From a virus: 34,243 bases of DNA. A model generated the notes under the pieces. The model was not told the DNA's origin, made no database searches, and was given only the letters and a program-made list of their open reading frames with translations. The stretch covers positions 15,936-50,178 of the IMG/VR virus record IMGVR_UViG_3300006620_000406, one strand, 5' to 3'. Position numbers and translations under genes: made by a program. Below, piece by piece: positions 5,789 through 31,695 of this stretch; positions within the stretch are counted from its first letter, which is position 1; each line of letters opens with the position of its first letter.

Positions 5789-6220
5789 TTATTTATCAAA
5801 AAGATAGTTCTCAATTTGATCCCTGATACGCATACATTCGTCCATTGCTATTTCAAACCGCATTTGCGCCGAATCTGCACGTATTTCGTCCTTACTATGC
5901 TCTACAGTATACTTATAAAATATAGCATCGTTATAGTATTTACTCAATTTAGACTCTAAACGCTTAATATCAGATACGGAATGGTGTAACCCATGTGCTG
6001 TGCAATGTGCGATTGCAAGTGCAACAGTCTTAGACGGGGTAAAGATTACATGGGATTTGTCTACAAGATTGAATACATGGTACCCTTTACCGTTTCTACG
6101 CATGACAACGTTCTTTATGCGTATGCTATTACCCTTTTTATATGGTACGGGATACTCTGCCAGTTCGGCATCCATTATCTCGTTTAAGAGTTTAGTTATA
6201 TTAGGGTTTGTATGTTTCAT
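5789..6220 (-). CDS. Conserved marine phage protein, function unknown
   Basis: A 143-residue, mildly basic, soluble-looking protein (MKHTNPNITKLLNEIMDAEL; later SKTVALAIAHCTAHGLHHSV). It has no recognised catalytic motif, although a small His/Cys cluster (AHCTAHGLHH) is visible near the middle. It overlaps the upstream gene (6201-6419) by 20 nt, indicating translational coupling. Its stop region contains the GATAAATAAATATAG late-promoter-like sequence for the next gene. Similar unannotated proteins occur in T4-like marine phages; this is from memory. Confidence 0.75.
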   Translation of the reverse strand: MKHTNPNITKLLNEIMDAELAEYPVPYKKGNSIRIKNVVMRRNGKGYHVFNLVDKSHVIFTPSKTVALAIAHCTAHGLHHSVSDIKRLESKLSKYYNDAIFYKYTVEHSKDEIRADSAQMRFEIAMDECMRIRDQIENYLFDK

Positions 6221-17972: not shown

Positions 17973-17991
17973 ATTGGCCATAAGTAATAGC

Positions 17992-18561
17992 ATGTTCGAA
18001 GTTATAGATAATTTTCTACCACAGAAGTATCAAGACGAGATTGAAGCAGTTATGTTACGCAACGATTTCCCTTGGTTCTATCAACCAAATATTACAACAG
18101 GTAAACCTAAGATTCAGGACGAACGTTTTCAATACAGTCATGGGTTTACTCATCAGTTTTATCATCAGGAGTTTGGACCACAAAGCAATTACTTTGGTAT
18201 GGTGCAAAACTTTATAGAGTTTGTAAATGTAAACTATGACACACAAGGTTACTATAGACTCAAAGCAAACTTAACAGTTCCTGTTAATGGCTGGACTAAA
18301 GATACAGTGCAAGAGCCACATATTGATATGCCTATACCACACTTGGTATGCTTGTATTATGTTAACGACAGTGATGGAGATACATTCTTCTTTGATCAAA
18401 CGTTTGACGAGAAAGCAGAGCCAGATGAGTTTACAGTTTACAAACGTGTTGCTCCTAAGAAAGGCACTGCGGTTGTGTTTGATGGATTACGCTATCATGG
18501 CAGTAATAATCCTATAGAAAATCAATCACGCATAATTTTAAATGCAGGAATGATCATATGA
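17992..18561 (+). CDS. 2OG-Fe(II) oxygenase, tandem paralogue 1
   Basis: A 189-residue probable 2-oxoglutarate/Fe(II)-dependent oxygenase. The metal-binding HxD is in QEPHIDMPIPHLVCLYYVND, the distal His in VVFDGLRYHGSNNPI, and the 2OG-binding Arg in NQSRIILNAG. The start ATG 17992 (MFEVIDNF) aligns exactly with the start of its downstream paralogue (MIEVIDNF). Phage members of this family are thought to hydroxylate protein side chains or other small targets; the substrate here is unknown. Its last 4 nt overlap the next gene (ATGA), giving translational coupling. Confidence 0.85.
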   Translation: MFEVIDNFLPQKYQDEIEAVMLRNDFPWFYQPNITTGKPKIQDERFQYSHGFTHQFYHQEFGPQSNYFGMVQNFIEFVNVNYDTQGYYRLKANLTVPVNGWTKDTVQEPHIDMPIPHLVCLYYVNDSDGDTFFFDQTFDEKAEPDEFTVYKRVAPKKGTAVVFDGLRYHGSNNPIENQSRIILNAGMII

Positions 18562-19136
18562 TAGAAGTAATAGATAATTTTATTCCACAACACTATCAAG
18601 ATAACATTGAAGAAGTGTTGAGTGCTGTAAACTTTCCGTGGCACTATAGACCGAGCATTAACAACGGTAAGCCTAAGATACATGATGAACGTTTTAAATA
18701 CGCACATGGATTTGTACACAACTTTTTCAATGACGAAGAAGGACCAACAAGCACATTTTATTCTACAGTCAGTACACTAAGATACTTTGCTGAGAAACAT
18801 GGCTTTGATAACAACGGCTACCACAGACTGAAAGCAAACTTAAATGTACAAATACCTGGTTGGCAAGATGGACAGTGCCAAGAACCTCATACTGATATGC
18901 CCAGTGATCATATGGTACTCATCTATTATGTTAATGATACTGACGGCGACACTTTTATATTCGATCGTAAGTTTGATCCTATGGATCCCAATCCTGGTCA
19001 GTTCGATCTTAAACAAAGAGTAGCACCTAAGAAAGGCAGAGCCTTGCTGTTCGATGGCAACTACTATCACGCAGGAAGTTATCCTATCCAAAATAGACAT
19101 AGGATAATGCTCAATGCAAACCTTATTACTGCATAG
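18558..19136 (+). CDS. 2OG-Fe(II) oxygenase, tandem paralogue 2
   Basis: A 192-residue paralogue of the preceding gene, alignable over the full length (shared segments include NGYHRLKANL versus QGYYRLKANL, and RVAPKKGRALLFDG versus RVAPKKGTAVVFDG). HxD lies in QEPHTDMPSDHMVLIYYVND, the distal His in NYYHAGSYPI, and Arg in RHRIMLNANL. Both copies keep all metal ligands, so this is duplication with retained activity, not decay. It precedes hemA by 28 nt, with a late-promoter-like box in between. Confidence 0.85.
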   Translation: MIEVIDNFIPQHYQDNIEEVLSAVNFPWHYRPSINNGKPKIHDERFKYAHGFVHNFFNDEEGPTSTFYSTVSTLRYFAEKHGFDNNGYHRLKANLNVQIPGWQDGQCQEPHTDMPSDHMVLIYYVNDTDGDTFIFDRKFDPMDPNPGQFDLKQRVAPKKGRALLFDGNYYHAGSYPIQNRHRIMLNANLITA

Positions 19137-21393: not shown

Positions 21394-21581
21394 TGGAACG
21401 AGGAGAGTTTGAAGGAATGGACGGACTACAGGTGCTATGGCATCTGTTAACAACTGAGCCTTTCTTCTGGTTTATATTATCAATAGGATTTATTGCAATA
21501 GGAGTCAGCATATGGGTAGACAGATGGGACGATCAGGAGAACATTGTACACTATGACGATTCACACCACAGCAATCGATAA
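21393..21581 (+). CDS. Small single-span membrane protein
   Basis: A 62-residue protein with one hydrophobic segment (FFWFILSIGFIAIGVSIWV) and an acidic, His-rich C-terminus (YDDSHHSNR). The ATG at 21393 is coupled by TAATG to the upstream stop; an alternative ATG at 21417 has a clear GAGGAG and would give 54 residues. It overlaps the start of the next oxygenase gene by 29 nt or more. Confidence 0.6.
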   Translation: MERGEFEGMDGLQVLWHLLTTEPFFWFILSIGFIAIGVSIWVDRWDDQENIVHYDDSHHSNR

Positions 21582-22116
21582 CATAATCGTATTTGATAAT
21601 TTCTTTGACACGGAAGTGTTTGAAGATATAATATCAAAGAGTGAATATGTTCCTTGGAAGTATTGCGAAGTTGTAAGCGAAAGCGAGGGAAACCCTGTTG
21701 AAAGGTTTATGACTTGGAATATTTACGAAGAGGGACATGTTCATTTCGATCCTATGCAACTCATGGACATAGTCGATGAGCAATGCAGAAAACAAATACA
21801 AAAAAGAAAGCCTAAAGCAGTTATACATGACATGAAACGTTTCCGCTTCAATGGCACAATGCAAGGCAAAGGTTACACCATGTGGCCGCATGCCGACATA
21901 CACGATCAACAAGAAACTGTATGGACTATTGTTGTTTACCTTAAAGGTGATGGAGGTACAACATTCTACAAGGAGAGAGACGGTGACATTCTAACTACCG
22001 TTGACTTCAAACCTAACAGAGCAGTAATGTTCCCAAGCATGTATTGGCACAGAGCCGAATCGCCCCGTAAGAATTATTTTCGTACCAGTTTAGGAATAGT
22101 ATATATGATAGACTAA
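21553..22116 (+). CDS. 2OG-Fe(II) oxygenase (third in the plus-strand cassette)
   Basis: A protein of about 187 residues with HxD in MWPHADIHDQQETVWTIVVY, a GGTTFYKE strand, the distal His in MFPSMYWHRAESPR and a following Arg. It belongs to the same superfamily as the 17992 and 18558 products but is clearly more distant, so not a recent duplicate. Two starts are possible: TTG 21544 (4 nt after AGGAG) and ATG 21553 (13 nt after); ATG is preferred on codon grounds only. The stop overlaps the stop of the convergent gene at 22113. Confidence 0.8.
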   Translation: MTIHTTAIDNIIVFDNFFDTEVFEDIISKSEYVPWKYCEVVSESEGNPVERFMTWNIYEEGHVHFDPMQLMDIVDEQCRKQIQKRKPKAVIHDMKRFRFNGTMQGKGYTMWPHADIHDQQETVWTIVVYLKGDGGTTFYKERDGDILTTVDFKPNRAVMFPSMYWHRAESPRKNYFRTSLGIVYMID

Positions 22117-28092: not shown

Positions 28093-28186
28093 GGTCCTGT
28101 AGTTTAAAGGTAAAACACCCGTTTTATAGGCGGCAAAGTCTCCAGATTAGAGAGCGATGCAGGTTCGAATCCTGCCAGGACTACCA
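28093..28186 (+). tRNA. tRNA with long variable arm; anticodon reads as UAU (Ile) but ambiguous
   Basis: 94 nt with encoded CCA. Acceptor GGTCCTG/CAGGACT (one G-T pair), D-arm GTTT-AAAGGTA-AAAC, T-arm GCAGG-TTCGAAT-CCTGC and discriminator A. The anticodon stem is best drawn with 4 good pairs (CCGT/GCGG) and loop TTTATAG, giving UAU, which would read AUA. The variable region is about 24 nt with a TCTC/GAGA stem, a class II feature normally limited to Leu, Ser and Tyr tRNAs. Identity therefore stays open. It lies between two early operons. Confidence 0.8.
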
Positions 28187-29354: not shown

Positions 29355-29690
29355 ATGGCATACCTTACCTACACCAAAGACCCAATCGGTCGTTTTGTTG
29401 AAAAAGACTTTGGCAAGACATTTGAGTATTCAGACAACGACGAGCCTATGAATGTGATGGAAGACTTTCCACACAAGGTTTGGGTTGCATCCGGGCAGAT
29501 TGGTGGTGACTCTGGGTTTAGGTATGCCCATGTGAAAAAGACTGTGGCCTACATTGTCACGGACGAAGATGAATTTGGATTGCCAGTTATTGAGAAATGG
29601 CACATAAAGAACAAGGTCGAATACGATATTCCAATGTTCATAGAGGCACAAAGAACCAATTTGTTTGGTAAATTAGGGGTTGACCTTTAG
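29355..29690 (+). CDS. Early protein, function unknown
   Basis: A 111-residue protein (MAYLTYTKDPIGRFVEKDFG; then VWVASGQIGGDSGFRYAHVK), mixed alpha/beta and soluble, with a CGGAGG ribosome binding site. Its 3' end overlaps the -35 box of the next promoter. No family is recognised. Confidence 0.65.
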   Translation: MAYLTYTKDPIGRFVEKDFGKTFEYSDNDEPMNVMEDFPHKVWVASGQIGGDSGFRYAHVKKTVAYIVTDEDEFGLPVIEKWHIKNKVEYDIPMFIEAQRTNLFGKLGVDL

Positions 29691-29708
29691 GGGCATTGGT
29701 GCTATTAT
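29680..29708 (+). promoter_or_regulatory. Early-type promoter (TTGACC-17-TATTAT)
   Basis: TTGACC 29680-29685 and TATTAT 29703-29708, followed by ATAAACATAATAAGGCA and the GAGAGGCAAAC ribosome binding region of the gene at 29745. Confidence 0.8.
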
Positions 29709-29744
29709 ATAAACATAATAAGGCACTAACAAAGAGAGGCAAAC

Positions 29745-30272
29745 ATGGCAACAAGGGCAAGAATAGGTTTAGAACTTAAAGACGGTTCATACATTTCATC
29801 ATATCAACATTGGGACGGTTATCCAGGCGGATTAGGTTATACCCTAATTGACTATTGGAACAACTATGACAAGATTGAAGAAGCAATCGAATTAGGTAAT
29901 GCTTCATCATGGAGGTTTATGGTTGGTCAGAAGATTGACTTCGACGATAGAAACAATCCACTTCACGATGTTCAGAATTGTTATTACGGCAGAGACAGAG
30001 GTGAAAAGGATCAAGGTCCTAAGAGACACCTTAATGGCGTATGCCTACTTGACGAAGCATTTAACAGTGGCGAAGAATATCTTTATGTCTTTAAAGAAAA
30101 CGGCAAGAAAGATTATATGGGTAAAGAAACTGGTGAATGGTTTTATACACATTGGGAGAATCCTGCAAAAGAAATCGCAGACATGAAACCACTTGAAGAA
30201 GATGCTATCAACGATCATATTGATATGTTGAAAAGACATCTTGAAATGATGAAAAACAGGAAGGCGGCATAA
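29745..30272 (+). CDS. Conserved phage protein (ATRARIGLEL family), function unknown
   Basis: A 175-residue protein starting MATRARIGLELKDGSYISSY then QHWDGYPGGLGYTLIDYWNN. This ATRxRIGxxxxDGxxxSxYxHWDGYPxGxG pattern is, from memory, shared by many phage and bacterial proteins of unknown function. Length is ordinary. It is the first gene of an operon reaching 30806 and is joined to the next gene by TAATG. Confidence 0.75.
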   Translation: MATRARIGLELKDGSYISSYQHWDGYPGGLGYTLIDYWNNYDKIEEAIELGNASSWRFMVGQKIDFDDRNNPLHDVQNCYYGRDRGEKDQGPKRHLNGVCLLDEAFNSGEEYLYVFKENGKKDYMGKETGEWFYTHWENPAKEIADMKPLEEDAINDHIDMLKRHLEMMKNRKAA

Positions 30273-30454
30273 TGGCAAAGATTGATATTGATGTGGTCGT
30301 AGAGACTTTCGCTCGTATGGATCATAAGCAAAGAGATGAGTTCGTAAAGACGTTGGTTAAGAAATGGCCACACATGGCTCAGAGTATCGGCAACATGATA
30401 CAACTCGAACAGATGATTCAAGACACAATGGAGGGTTTCAATGCACAAGACTAA
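30272..30454 (+). CDS. Small helical early protein
   Basis: A 60-residue protein (MAKIDIDVVVETFARMDHKQ; then LVKKWPHMAQSIGNMIQLEQ), coupled by TAATG to the upstream gene and overlapping the next gene by 14 nt. No family is recognised. Confidence 0.65.
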   Translation: MAKIDIDVVVETFARMDHKQRDEFVKTLVKKWPHMAQSIGNMIQLEQMIQDTMEGFNAQD

Positions 30455-30806
30455 TCACGAAGAATATACTGACGGCCCATTTGAGGTTAAGGTATGGTAT
30501 TCTCCGGAATTTGTTCCTATCAGAGACTTGTTTGATGATACCGTGAACAATGTAGATGAAATGGAGCAGAAGGCTGACAAGGGTGAGGCTTCATGGTTTA
30601 TTGCAGGCGTTGATTATTTCTATAAGGGTCACCAGGTAGGTTCAGACAGCATTGGTGGCAACTATTATGAGGAATGGGAAGAAGATGCACTCAACGAAGG
30701 CTTGGGTGGGTATCTTGTAGACATGAAGGCCAATGCAAAAGACGAGGCCTTGAAGAACATAAAAGAATTGAAGAACAATATGAGCAAGGACTTTGCTCTG
30801 CTATAG
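30441..30806 (+). CDS. Early protein, function unknown
   Basis: A 121-residue acidic protein (MHKTNHEEYTDGPFEVKVWY; then DYFYKGHQVGSDSIGGNYYE) with a helical Lys-rich end. GAGGG precedes the ATG. It is the last gene before the structured non-coding stretch. Confidence 0.65.
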   Translation: MHKTNHEEYTDGPFEVKVWYSPEFVPIRDLFDDTVNNVDEMEQKADKGEASWFIAGVDYFYKGHQVGSDSIGGNYYEEWEEDALNEGLGGYLVDMKANAKDEALKNIKELKNNMSKDFALL

Positions 30807-30810
30807 AATT

Positions 30811-30995
30811 TGGGTGTTGAATCTAACATAGATGCCCAGGTAGGTTTTCGTCCGGTGCGGACGGTTTCCCCAGAATCATAGATTCGAATAAACCATAATG
30901 ATGCGAGGTAGTTTGACCTACTGCCTATGTAGACCAAGTTCGGTTAGAAGGACATGGCGAGACATAGGTTGGGAGCCTGGTTGCAGGGACACCTC
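30811..30995 (+). ncRNA. Structured non-coding RNA, family unknown
   Basis: A GC-richer, ORF-poor stretch that folds as nested stems: outer GGTGT/ACACC (30813-30817 with 30989-30993); CCAGG/CCTGG (30836-30840 with 30976-30980); a three-way unit closed by GGTTT/AAACC (30843-30847 with 30890-30894) holding CGTCCG-GTG-CGGACG (30849-30863) and GAATC-ATA-GATTC (30873-30885); a GTAG/CTAC hairpin near 30908-30921; and CCTATGT/ACATAGG (30924-30930 with 30962-30968). The pairings are mutually compatible. It matches no RNA family I can name (not RNase P, tmRNA or 4.5S). It fills most of the 286-nt gap 30807-31092. Confidence 0.6.
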
Positions 30996-31034
30996 AAAAA
31001 CTTAGGGTCAACTTTAATTTGGTAATCTTAGGGG

Positions 31035-31063
31035 TAGACTTTTTACTCCTAAGGTGCTATATT
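31035..31063 (+). promoter_or_regulatory. Early-type promoter (TAGACT-17-TATATT)
   Basis: TAGACT 31035-31040 and TATATT 31058-31063, then AAGAACATAATAACA and a GAGGGCAAA ribosome binding region before the ATG at 31093. The -35 has one change from the usual TTGACT. Confidence 0.75.
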
Positions 31064-31092
31064 AAGAACATAATAACAAATAAGAGGGCAAA

Positions 31093-31695
31093 ATGAATAT
31101 ATCAAAAGAACAAATCAAAAAAGCATTCGTGAGCAAGGTCGAAGACATTGACGACTACGCCTATAACAATCAAGATTGGTATCAGGCTGATGCACAGAGA
31201 ATCAGATACATCTTAGCAACTATTGACATGGATCCAGGTGATCCTTATTCAGAGGGCGAGAAGCAACTGGAACTTGGACAAGAGTCAAACAGATATTATA
31301 ATTGCATAGAGTTTGATGACAATGGTGAATACCAAATTAATGATGAGCAGAAGTTATCCTTGCTGATGAGAATGAGTTATGATGAACTGAGCGACTATGT
31401 TCACAAGAACGAATTTGATTGGATTGGTGACGACTACGATCACATAAACGAATATCTATTCCAAATAATGAACACATGGCAAGACGAGGTTGAGTTTGAT
31501 ACTGAGGACTACGAGAACGTCGAGTGTATGACCGTGACAAAAAGAGCAAGGGTTTGGAATGTTGATCCTCAAACAGGCTACAAGAGCGAGAACAAGCATG
31601 AAGTGGCCTATAACATTTTGATGGATTATTTTGATGAACTGCCAGAAGAAACAAGGGCAGAGGCTCACAAAAGATTGGAGGCTGTAGAATGCTAA
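31093..31695 (+). CDS. Acidic early protein, function unknown
   Basis: A 200-residue, strongly acidic protein (MNISKEQIKKAFVSKVEDID; later DELSDYVHKNEFDWIGDDYD and EFDTEDYENVECMTVTKRAR). Such Asp/Glu/Tyr-rich composition recalls DNA-mimic or other inhibitor proteins of phages, but no motif proves this. It overlaps the next small gene by 7 nt. Confidence 0.7.
   Translation: MNISKEQIKKAFVSKVEDIDDYAYNNQDWYQADAQRIRYILATIDMDPGDPYSEGEKQLELGQESNRYYNCIEFDDNGEYQINDEQKLSLLMRMSYDELSDYVHKNEFDWIGDDYDHINEYLFQIMNTWQDEVEFDTEDYENVECMTVTKRARVWNVDPQTGYKSENKHEVAYNILMDYFDELPEETRAEAHKRLEAVEC

Follow-up and report, generated by a model that had tools for sequence, protein, structure and literature searches.

A marine T4-like phage contig carries, in the gap between two protein-coding genes, a plus-strand RNA of about 200 nt in which a 5′ hairpin (P1) and a three-way junction (Px/P2/P3) precede a large H-type pseudoknot (Pa/Pb). 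Comparison of six distinct copies makes it very probable that this RNA and its fold are real, and we give roughly even odds (probability about 0.5) to the reading that it exists as a discrete molecule of this size and would act in trans through protein binding. The window analyzed here comprises 34,243 nt (bases 15936–50178 of IMGVR_UViG_3300006620_000406, a viral contig of 50,178 bases), and positions refer to it unless another record is named. Within it, the RNA occupies a 286-nt gap (30807–31092) that separates the plus-strand ORFs 30441–30806 and 31093–31695 and in which we found no plausible protein gene. Its GC content is 48% (30811–31012), compared with 39.3% for the window. On both points, a noncoding stretch amid coding sequence and a GC content above that of its surroundings, the original prediction holds. 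It had placed the RNA at 30811–30995; the location is right, but the 3′ end moves to about 31012 once the second strand of the pseudoknot is included.

The contig is of the marine T4-like type, with genes for the large and small subunits of ribonucleotide reductase, DUF6267, 2OG-Fe(II) oxygenases and a fatty acid desaturase. Genes of the 2OG-Fe(II) oxygenase kind number at least five in this one 50-kb contig, with two tandem pairs among them (window 17974–18561, 18558–19136 and 21544–22116, and L030 3833–5066); two of the genes match the PHROG ‘DNA endonuclease V’ more strongly, with the 2OG PHROG second.

Conservation of the RNA looked absent at first, as none of the relatives of the downstream gene (ORF 31093) is accompanied by it. 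Homologues were reached through the gene at 29745, which lies three ORFs before the RNA; blastn against the DNA of records with relatives of this gene matched L037 (88.6% over 70 nt, E = 5e-18) and L053/L055 (84% over 69 nt, E = 4e-13); the adjoining protein is only 33–38% identical in the closest copies. A pattern search derived from the conserved core added L088 and L092, and covariance model R1 detected the divergent L059 (39 bits, E = 1.5e-7). Matches to the covariance model reach 161–204 bits in five copies, among them L118 (191.5 bits), which came from a pattern scan of bacterial genomes; the other four of the five matches in that scan were chance occurrences in coding DNA. L118 (PBJN01000001.1) is a phage contig, carrying genes of the same phage families, that was binned with a Porticoccaceae metagenome-assembled genome (MAG), which is a weak hint at the host or else a binning error. 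After removal of duplicates, six distinct copies remain (the window, L037, L053, L118, L088 and L059) that represent about four independent lineages, with L053, L118 and L088 being close relatives. Every record holding the RNA has one copy per genome.

Wider searches returned no further copies. Model R2 found no RNA in 45 other related records, sub-threshold scores aside; no copy was present in 145 other sampled genomes of the order assigned to the L118 MAG; and blastn against 50,697 phage records and 72,556 plasmids gave no real homologue. All eight matches of an exact 16-mer scan were chance hits in coding DNA, a covariance-model match in L063 (E = 0.05) was not accepted as it lies mostly within an ORF, and L119 proved not to be a homologue. 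In L031 and L056, the closest relatives by the protein encoded at 29745 (91–94% identical), the RNA could not be seen because the contigs stop just before or inside the operon.

We aligned the six copies by hand on their structure, with conserved spacers as anchors, and set the boundaries of the RNA by the 5′ strand of P1 and the 3′ strand of Pb. Eight helices are common to the copies (Table 1). Compensatory base changes across homologues, the general mark of a structured noncoding RNA and the point on which the original prediction staked itself, are present: both partners change in 24 of 42 pairs, with 43 double-change cells and 94.8% of cells paired, counts that lean toward the structure because we had it in view when aligning by eye. 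When partners were slid by one to three columns as a control, however, the counts collapsed to no more than 9 pairs and 12 double-change cells, and each helix keeps a constant spacing from conserved anchors. Two-sided changes support P1, P6, Pb and P5 best, followed by P3, P2 and Pa. RNAalifold on a MAFFT alignment returned P2, P3 and a C4/G4 helix (GUUUCCCC/GGGGGAGAU), the pseudoknot not being representable by that program; we left the C4/G4 helix out because it fails in the window and in L059.

Table 1. Positions in the window of the RNA, its helices and the adjoining features.
Feature	Position	Strand	Sequence and observations
Probable σ70-type promoter of the operon ending in the RNA	29680–29708	+	TTGACC-17-TATTAT, 10 of 12 positions; predicted from sequence
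ORF just upstream of the RNA	30441–30806	+	Unannotated phage family; present in 6 of 7 RNA-bearing records
Structured RNA, whole (about 202 nt)	30811–31012	+	Homologues in L037, L053/L055, L118, L088/L092 and L059
P1 hairpin	30811–30838	+	UGGGU 30811–30815 / GCCCA 30834–30838; loop starts GUUG; two-sided changes in 5/5 pairs
Px, closing stem of the three-way junction (probable)	30843–30894	+	GGUUU 30843–30847 / AAACC 30890–30894; 96.7% of cells paired; only one one-sided change
P2 hairpin	30849–30863	+	CGUCCG-GUG-CGGACG; 100% paired; two-sided change in 1/6 pairs (U-A to A-U, L059)
P3 hairpin	30873–30885	+	GAAUC-AUA-GAUUC; two-sided changes in 2/4 counted pairs; one additional pair in the window copy
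Pa, first pseudoknot stem	30905–30995	+	GAGGU 30905–30909 / ACCUC 30991–30995; 100% paired; two-sided change in 1/5 pairs (A-U to G-C, window)
Pb, second (crossing) pseudoknot stem	30913–31011	+	UUGACC 30913–30918 / GGUCAA 31006–31011; two-sided changes in 6/6 pairs
P5	30924–30968	+	CCUAUGU 30924–30930 / ACAUAGG 30962–30968; two-sided changes in 5/7 pairs
P6 hairpin	30976–30987	+	CCUG-GUUG-CAGG; two-sided changes in 4/4 pairs; GAAA tetraloop in L118
A-rich linker, pseudoknot loop 3	30996–31005	+	AAAAACUUAG; RAAAACUYA in all copies; nearly invariant in alignment A5
Promoter region of the next gene, outside the RNA	31019–31063	+	TTTGGTAAT ... TAGACT-17-TGCTATATT; related block before the promoter at 29680

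As judged from the aligned copies, the RNA contains an H-type pseudoknot whose loop 2 accommodates a P5–P6 domain and whose loop 3 is rich in A. Its crossing stems both show two-sided changes, and its elements follow the order 5′ Pa, AG(U/AA), Pb, 5 nt, P5, P6, Pa′, RAAAACUYA, Pb′ 3′, with P5 beginning 5 nt past Pb in every copy. Pb occurs in four sequence states (UUGACC/GGUCAA, GCAGA/UCUGC, GUAGGA/UCCUAC and AUCAACC/GGUUGAU) and is complementary in each; complementary runs as long are found in 1–4% of random 20-mers from the same loci (P of about 0.01–0.04 per state). The core of the pseudoknot is conserved in sequence as GC-GARGU-AG ... ACYUC-RAAAACUYA, and an A-rich loop 3 in an H-type pseudoknot is what is expected of a minor-groove strand. 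Of the nested fold described originally, P2, P3, P5 (its 7-bp long-range stem), P6 and an inner hairpin of P1 stand, the last of these (AUCUA 30821–30825/UAGAU 30829–30833) being unique to the copy in the window. Every local stem described originally is present in the window sequence. The two outer stems, GGGUGU/ACACCU and the one formed by GCCCAGGUAGGU, are nevertheless not conserved: the pairings they make with the Pa′ strand and with the bases following P1 are impossible in every other copy, and the 3′ strand of the GGGUGU/ACACCU stem belongs to the conserved Pa of the pseudoknot that takes their place.

Single-sequence folding evidence alone would leave a weak case for a structured RNA. 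The minimum free energy of 30811–30995 is −58.9 kcal/mol (z = −1.89), which 9 of 200 dinucleotide shuffles equal, and the minus strand of the same interval folds equally well, with the same score. In a scan of the whole window, the RNA (z = −2.05) departs from the window mean by only about 1.1 s.d. on the low side, and more extreme values occur in many coding windows. Free-energy minimization favors other folds over the conserved one by about 3–10 kcal/mol, a comparison in which the conserved nested pairs were enforced and Pb was omitted.

The plus strand is identified as the RNA because several G-U pairs, in P1, P2, P5 and Px, exist only on that strand and would be A-C on the opposite one. 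In every copy, the RNA begins at most about 20 nt from the upstream stop codon, which in L088 falls inside P1, and we found no convincing promoter close upstream of the RNA. These two observations make the 3′ terminus of the upstream operon the simplest source of the RNA, and the window copy is probably transcribed from the promoter at 29680. A σ70-like promoter of the next gene follows the RNA in five of the six copies (the window, L037, L053, L088 and L059). L059 also has a strong intrinsic terminator at about 5908–5955, some 20 nt after the RNA, and L118 has neither signal; the block at 31019–31063 is likewise absent from L118, which is without a promoter there. The UUUGGUAAU tail was considered as part of the RNA and rejected, as it goes with the promoter. 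Two further features mark this promoter region. A strong hairpin (CTTAGGGGTA/TACTCCTAAG, 31027–31053) shares sequence with both the −35 region and the spacer of the ORF 31093 promoter, and the window contains two related promoter blocks, at 29655–29730 and 31014–31078 (TTTGGTAA..TTAGGGGT-GAC), which suggests duplicated promoter cassettes.

The operon upstream of the RNA is conserved among the copies, with a member of the 29745 gene family near the RNA in every one, and the downstream genes are of four kinds. Five of five viral contigs encoding close relatives of the 30441-family protein of L118 carry the RNA, and distant members of this family occur without a detectable RNA in L038, L040, L057 and L058. 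The 30441 protein is predicted as a small α/β fold (pLDDT of 83) with no informative fold match; it hints at no function because the relatives found are unannotated phage proteins only. In L057 (2980–3185), and also in L058, the gap directly after the 30441-family gene could form a minimal pseudoknot from AAGUC/GACUU and AGGGAU/AUCCUU around an A-rich loop, preceded by AUGAUGC, as in the window. This gap could hold a distant, shortened homologue; the RNA models give no match there. Other noncoding stretches adjoin relatives of the downstream gene. In L004 (2838–2975), a different stretch upstream of the ORF 31093 homologue is bounded by a promoter (TTGACT...TATTAT) on one side and a terminator-like hairpin on the other (GGGAGTTTT...AAAACTCCC) and holds GATCATAGATC, which resembles P3 of L037, with no match to the RNA model. 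In L006 (1857–2005), a GC-richer, foldable noncoding stretch (−32.7 kcal/mol), unrelated in sequence to the window RNA, precedes a gene of the ORF 31093 family. The site before genes of this family may be a place where RNA genes swap.

The RNA represents a new family in that it has no detectable relation to a known one, the RNAs named in the literature having been compared by description, and this agrees with the original assignment to a structured noncoding RNA of unknown family. No Rfam 15 family reaches its gathering threshold within the RNA, and matches for three homologues at E values up to 10 are sub-threshold noise or terminator hairpins in L059; across the window, tRNA is the only Rfam family matched. 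ARAGORN classifies the RNA as neither tRNA nor tmRNA. Phage tRNA genes resemble it in arrangement, in that a structured RNA closes one unit and is followed by a promoter and the next gene, but by ARAGORN and Rfam alike our RNA is not one of them. The window also contains a tRNA-Ile(TAT) gene (28093–28186, 94 nt) that is located after an ORF and before a promoter, an arrangement like that of the RNA.

A full-text search of openly available papers returned only phage RNAs of other kinds (manA, wcaG, PhotoRC-II, abiF, GOLLD, ROOL and ToxI mimics), none described with the same architecture. The antitoxin RNA ToxI is a tandem repeat of short units. It shares with the present RNA an H-type pseudoknot and, in its mimics, a phage RNA that works by mimicry, but ours is one long molecule that includes a three-way junction, and we found neither tandem short-pseudoknot repeats in 30700–31200 nor an Rfam match to support a type III antitoxin. 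ToxI belongs to a type III toxin–antitoxin system with phage mimics, and phage phiTE escapes it through ToxI-like repeats (PMC3475682). GOLLD and ROOL are large structured RNAs with complex conserved folds, some of them phage-carried (PMC12286853, PMC2864571), and are, as here, orphan structured RNAs of phages; they are much larger and form oligomeric cages, whereas the present RNA has about 200 nt and one H-type pseudoknot, with no sequence or covariance-model match to them. Like our RNA, manA and wcaG (RF01745 and RF01761) come from marine T4-like phages; these cyanophage RNAs, one of which (manA) has a possible pseudoknot (PMC2864571, PMC9964418), are candidate cis-regulators in 5′ UTRs, whereas the RNA described here is positioned at the 3′ ends of operons, ahead of a separate promoter, and has no covariance-model match to either.

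We propose that transcription of the preceding, putatively early-type operon (genes at 29745, 30272 and 30441) would yield the RNA at its 3′ end, and that termination or RNase processing would release it, much as for phage tRNAs. Its compact, conserved pseudoknot core could present a recognition surface for a host or phage protein, and the RNA may act in trans during infection as part of a ribonucleoprotein, a decoy or an inhibitor. The strongest alternative is a 3′-UTR element acting in cis, in which the pseudoknot would be a roadblock to 3′ exonucleases or would control transcription into the next unit. Compact pseudoknots with A-rich loops are able to block exonucleases, and several features of the locus fit such a role, namely the start of every copy close to or, in L088, across the upstream stop codon, the retention of upstream genes as downstream genes vary, the position of the L118 copy between two genes with no promoter, and the restriction of the terminator to L059. 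Yet there is a single copy per genome despite the many operons in the window, its size and sequence conservation go far beyond what a roadblock needs, and the covariance model finds no copy in most related phages that share its upstream gene families, so we regard a cis role as possible but rather doubtful. Self-cleavage by the pseudoknotted core, freeing the upstream mRNA, is an improbable alternative: several ribozyme classes are pseudoknots and the unpaired GC-GA and RAAAACUYA are nearly invariant around this one, but the RNA matches no Rfam ribozyme family and no cleavage site can be inferred.

We give equally little credence to a leader or riboswitch of the downstream gene, which the original prediction had raised as a processed leader. 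A start codon follows the L118 RNA at a distance of about 20 nt, and cyanophages do have cis-regulatory RNAs such as manA and wcaG (PMC2864571). The RNA does not, however, lie between a promoter and a functionally consistent downstream gene, as a 5′-UTR element would: in five of six copies a separate promoter lies between the RNA and the next gene, accompanied in L059 by a terminator, and conserved upstream genes next to downstream genes of four unrelated kinds argue against this reading. A small protein gene (ATGGCA..., 32–47 codons) has an open frame starting at the same place in L037, L053, L118 and L088, but it is very unlikely to explain the conservation. It is absent from the window and L059, its Shine–Dalgarno-like AGGAG lies almost on the ATG, and changes in P6 and P3 shift the frame while fitting base pairing; we rejected this ORF, as its frame is broken between copies by length changes in P6. 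That a GC-rich gap merely happens to fold, as a z-score of only −1.9 and the better scores of many coding windows might suggest, is refuted by homologues with extensive covariation.

Annotation of marine viral genomes is almost wholly of proteins, and noncoding RNAs beyond tRNAs and a few cis-elements are missed; those of marine viruses go unseen because no Rfam model exists. Our results illustrate that a real RNA can hide in a hairpin-rich gap with an unremarkable folding z-score, and they provide a concrete, covariation-supported RNA family whose defined fold and conserved pseudoknot core are open to probing, pull-down and knock-out. More tentatively, and less probably than trans action as such, the RNA may represent a putative new class of phage RNA, a single-copy pseudoknotted ribonucleoprotein RNA of roughly 200 nt that ends a host-takeover operon and inhibits or redirects a host protein while the phage infects marine bacteria. 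If this is true, candidate host targets would include a nuclease, RNA polymerase, a ribosome-associated factor or a defense effector.
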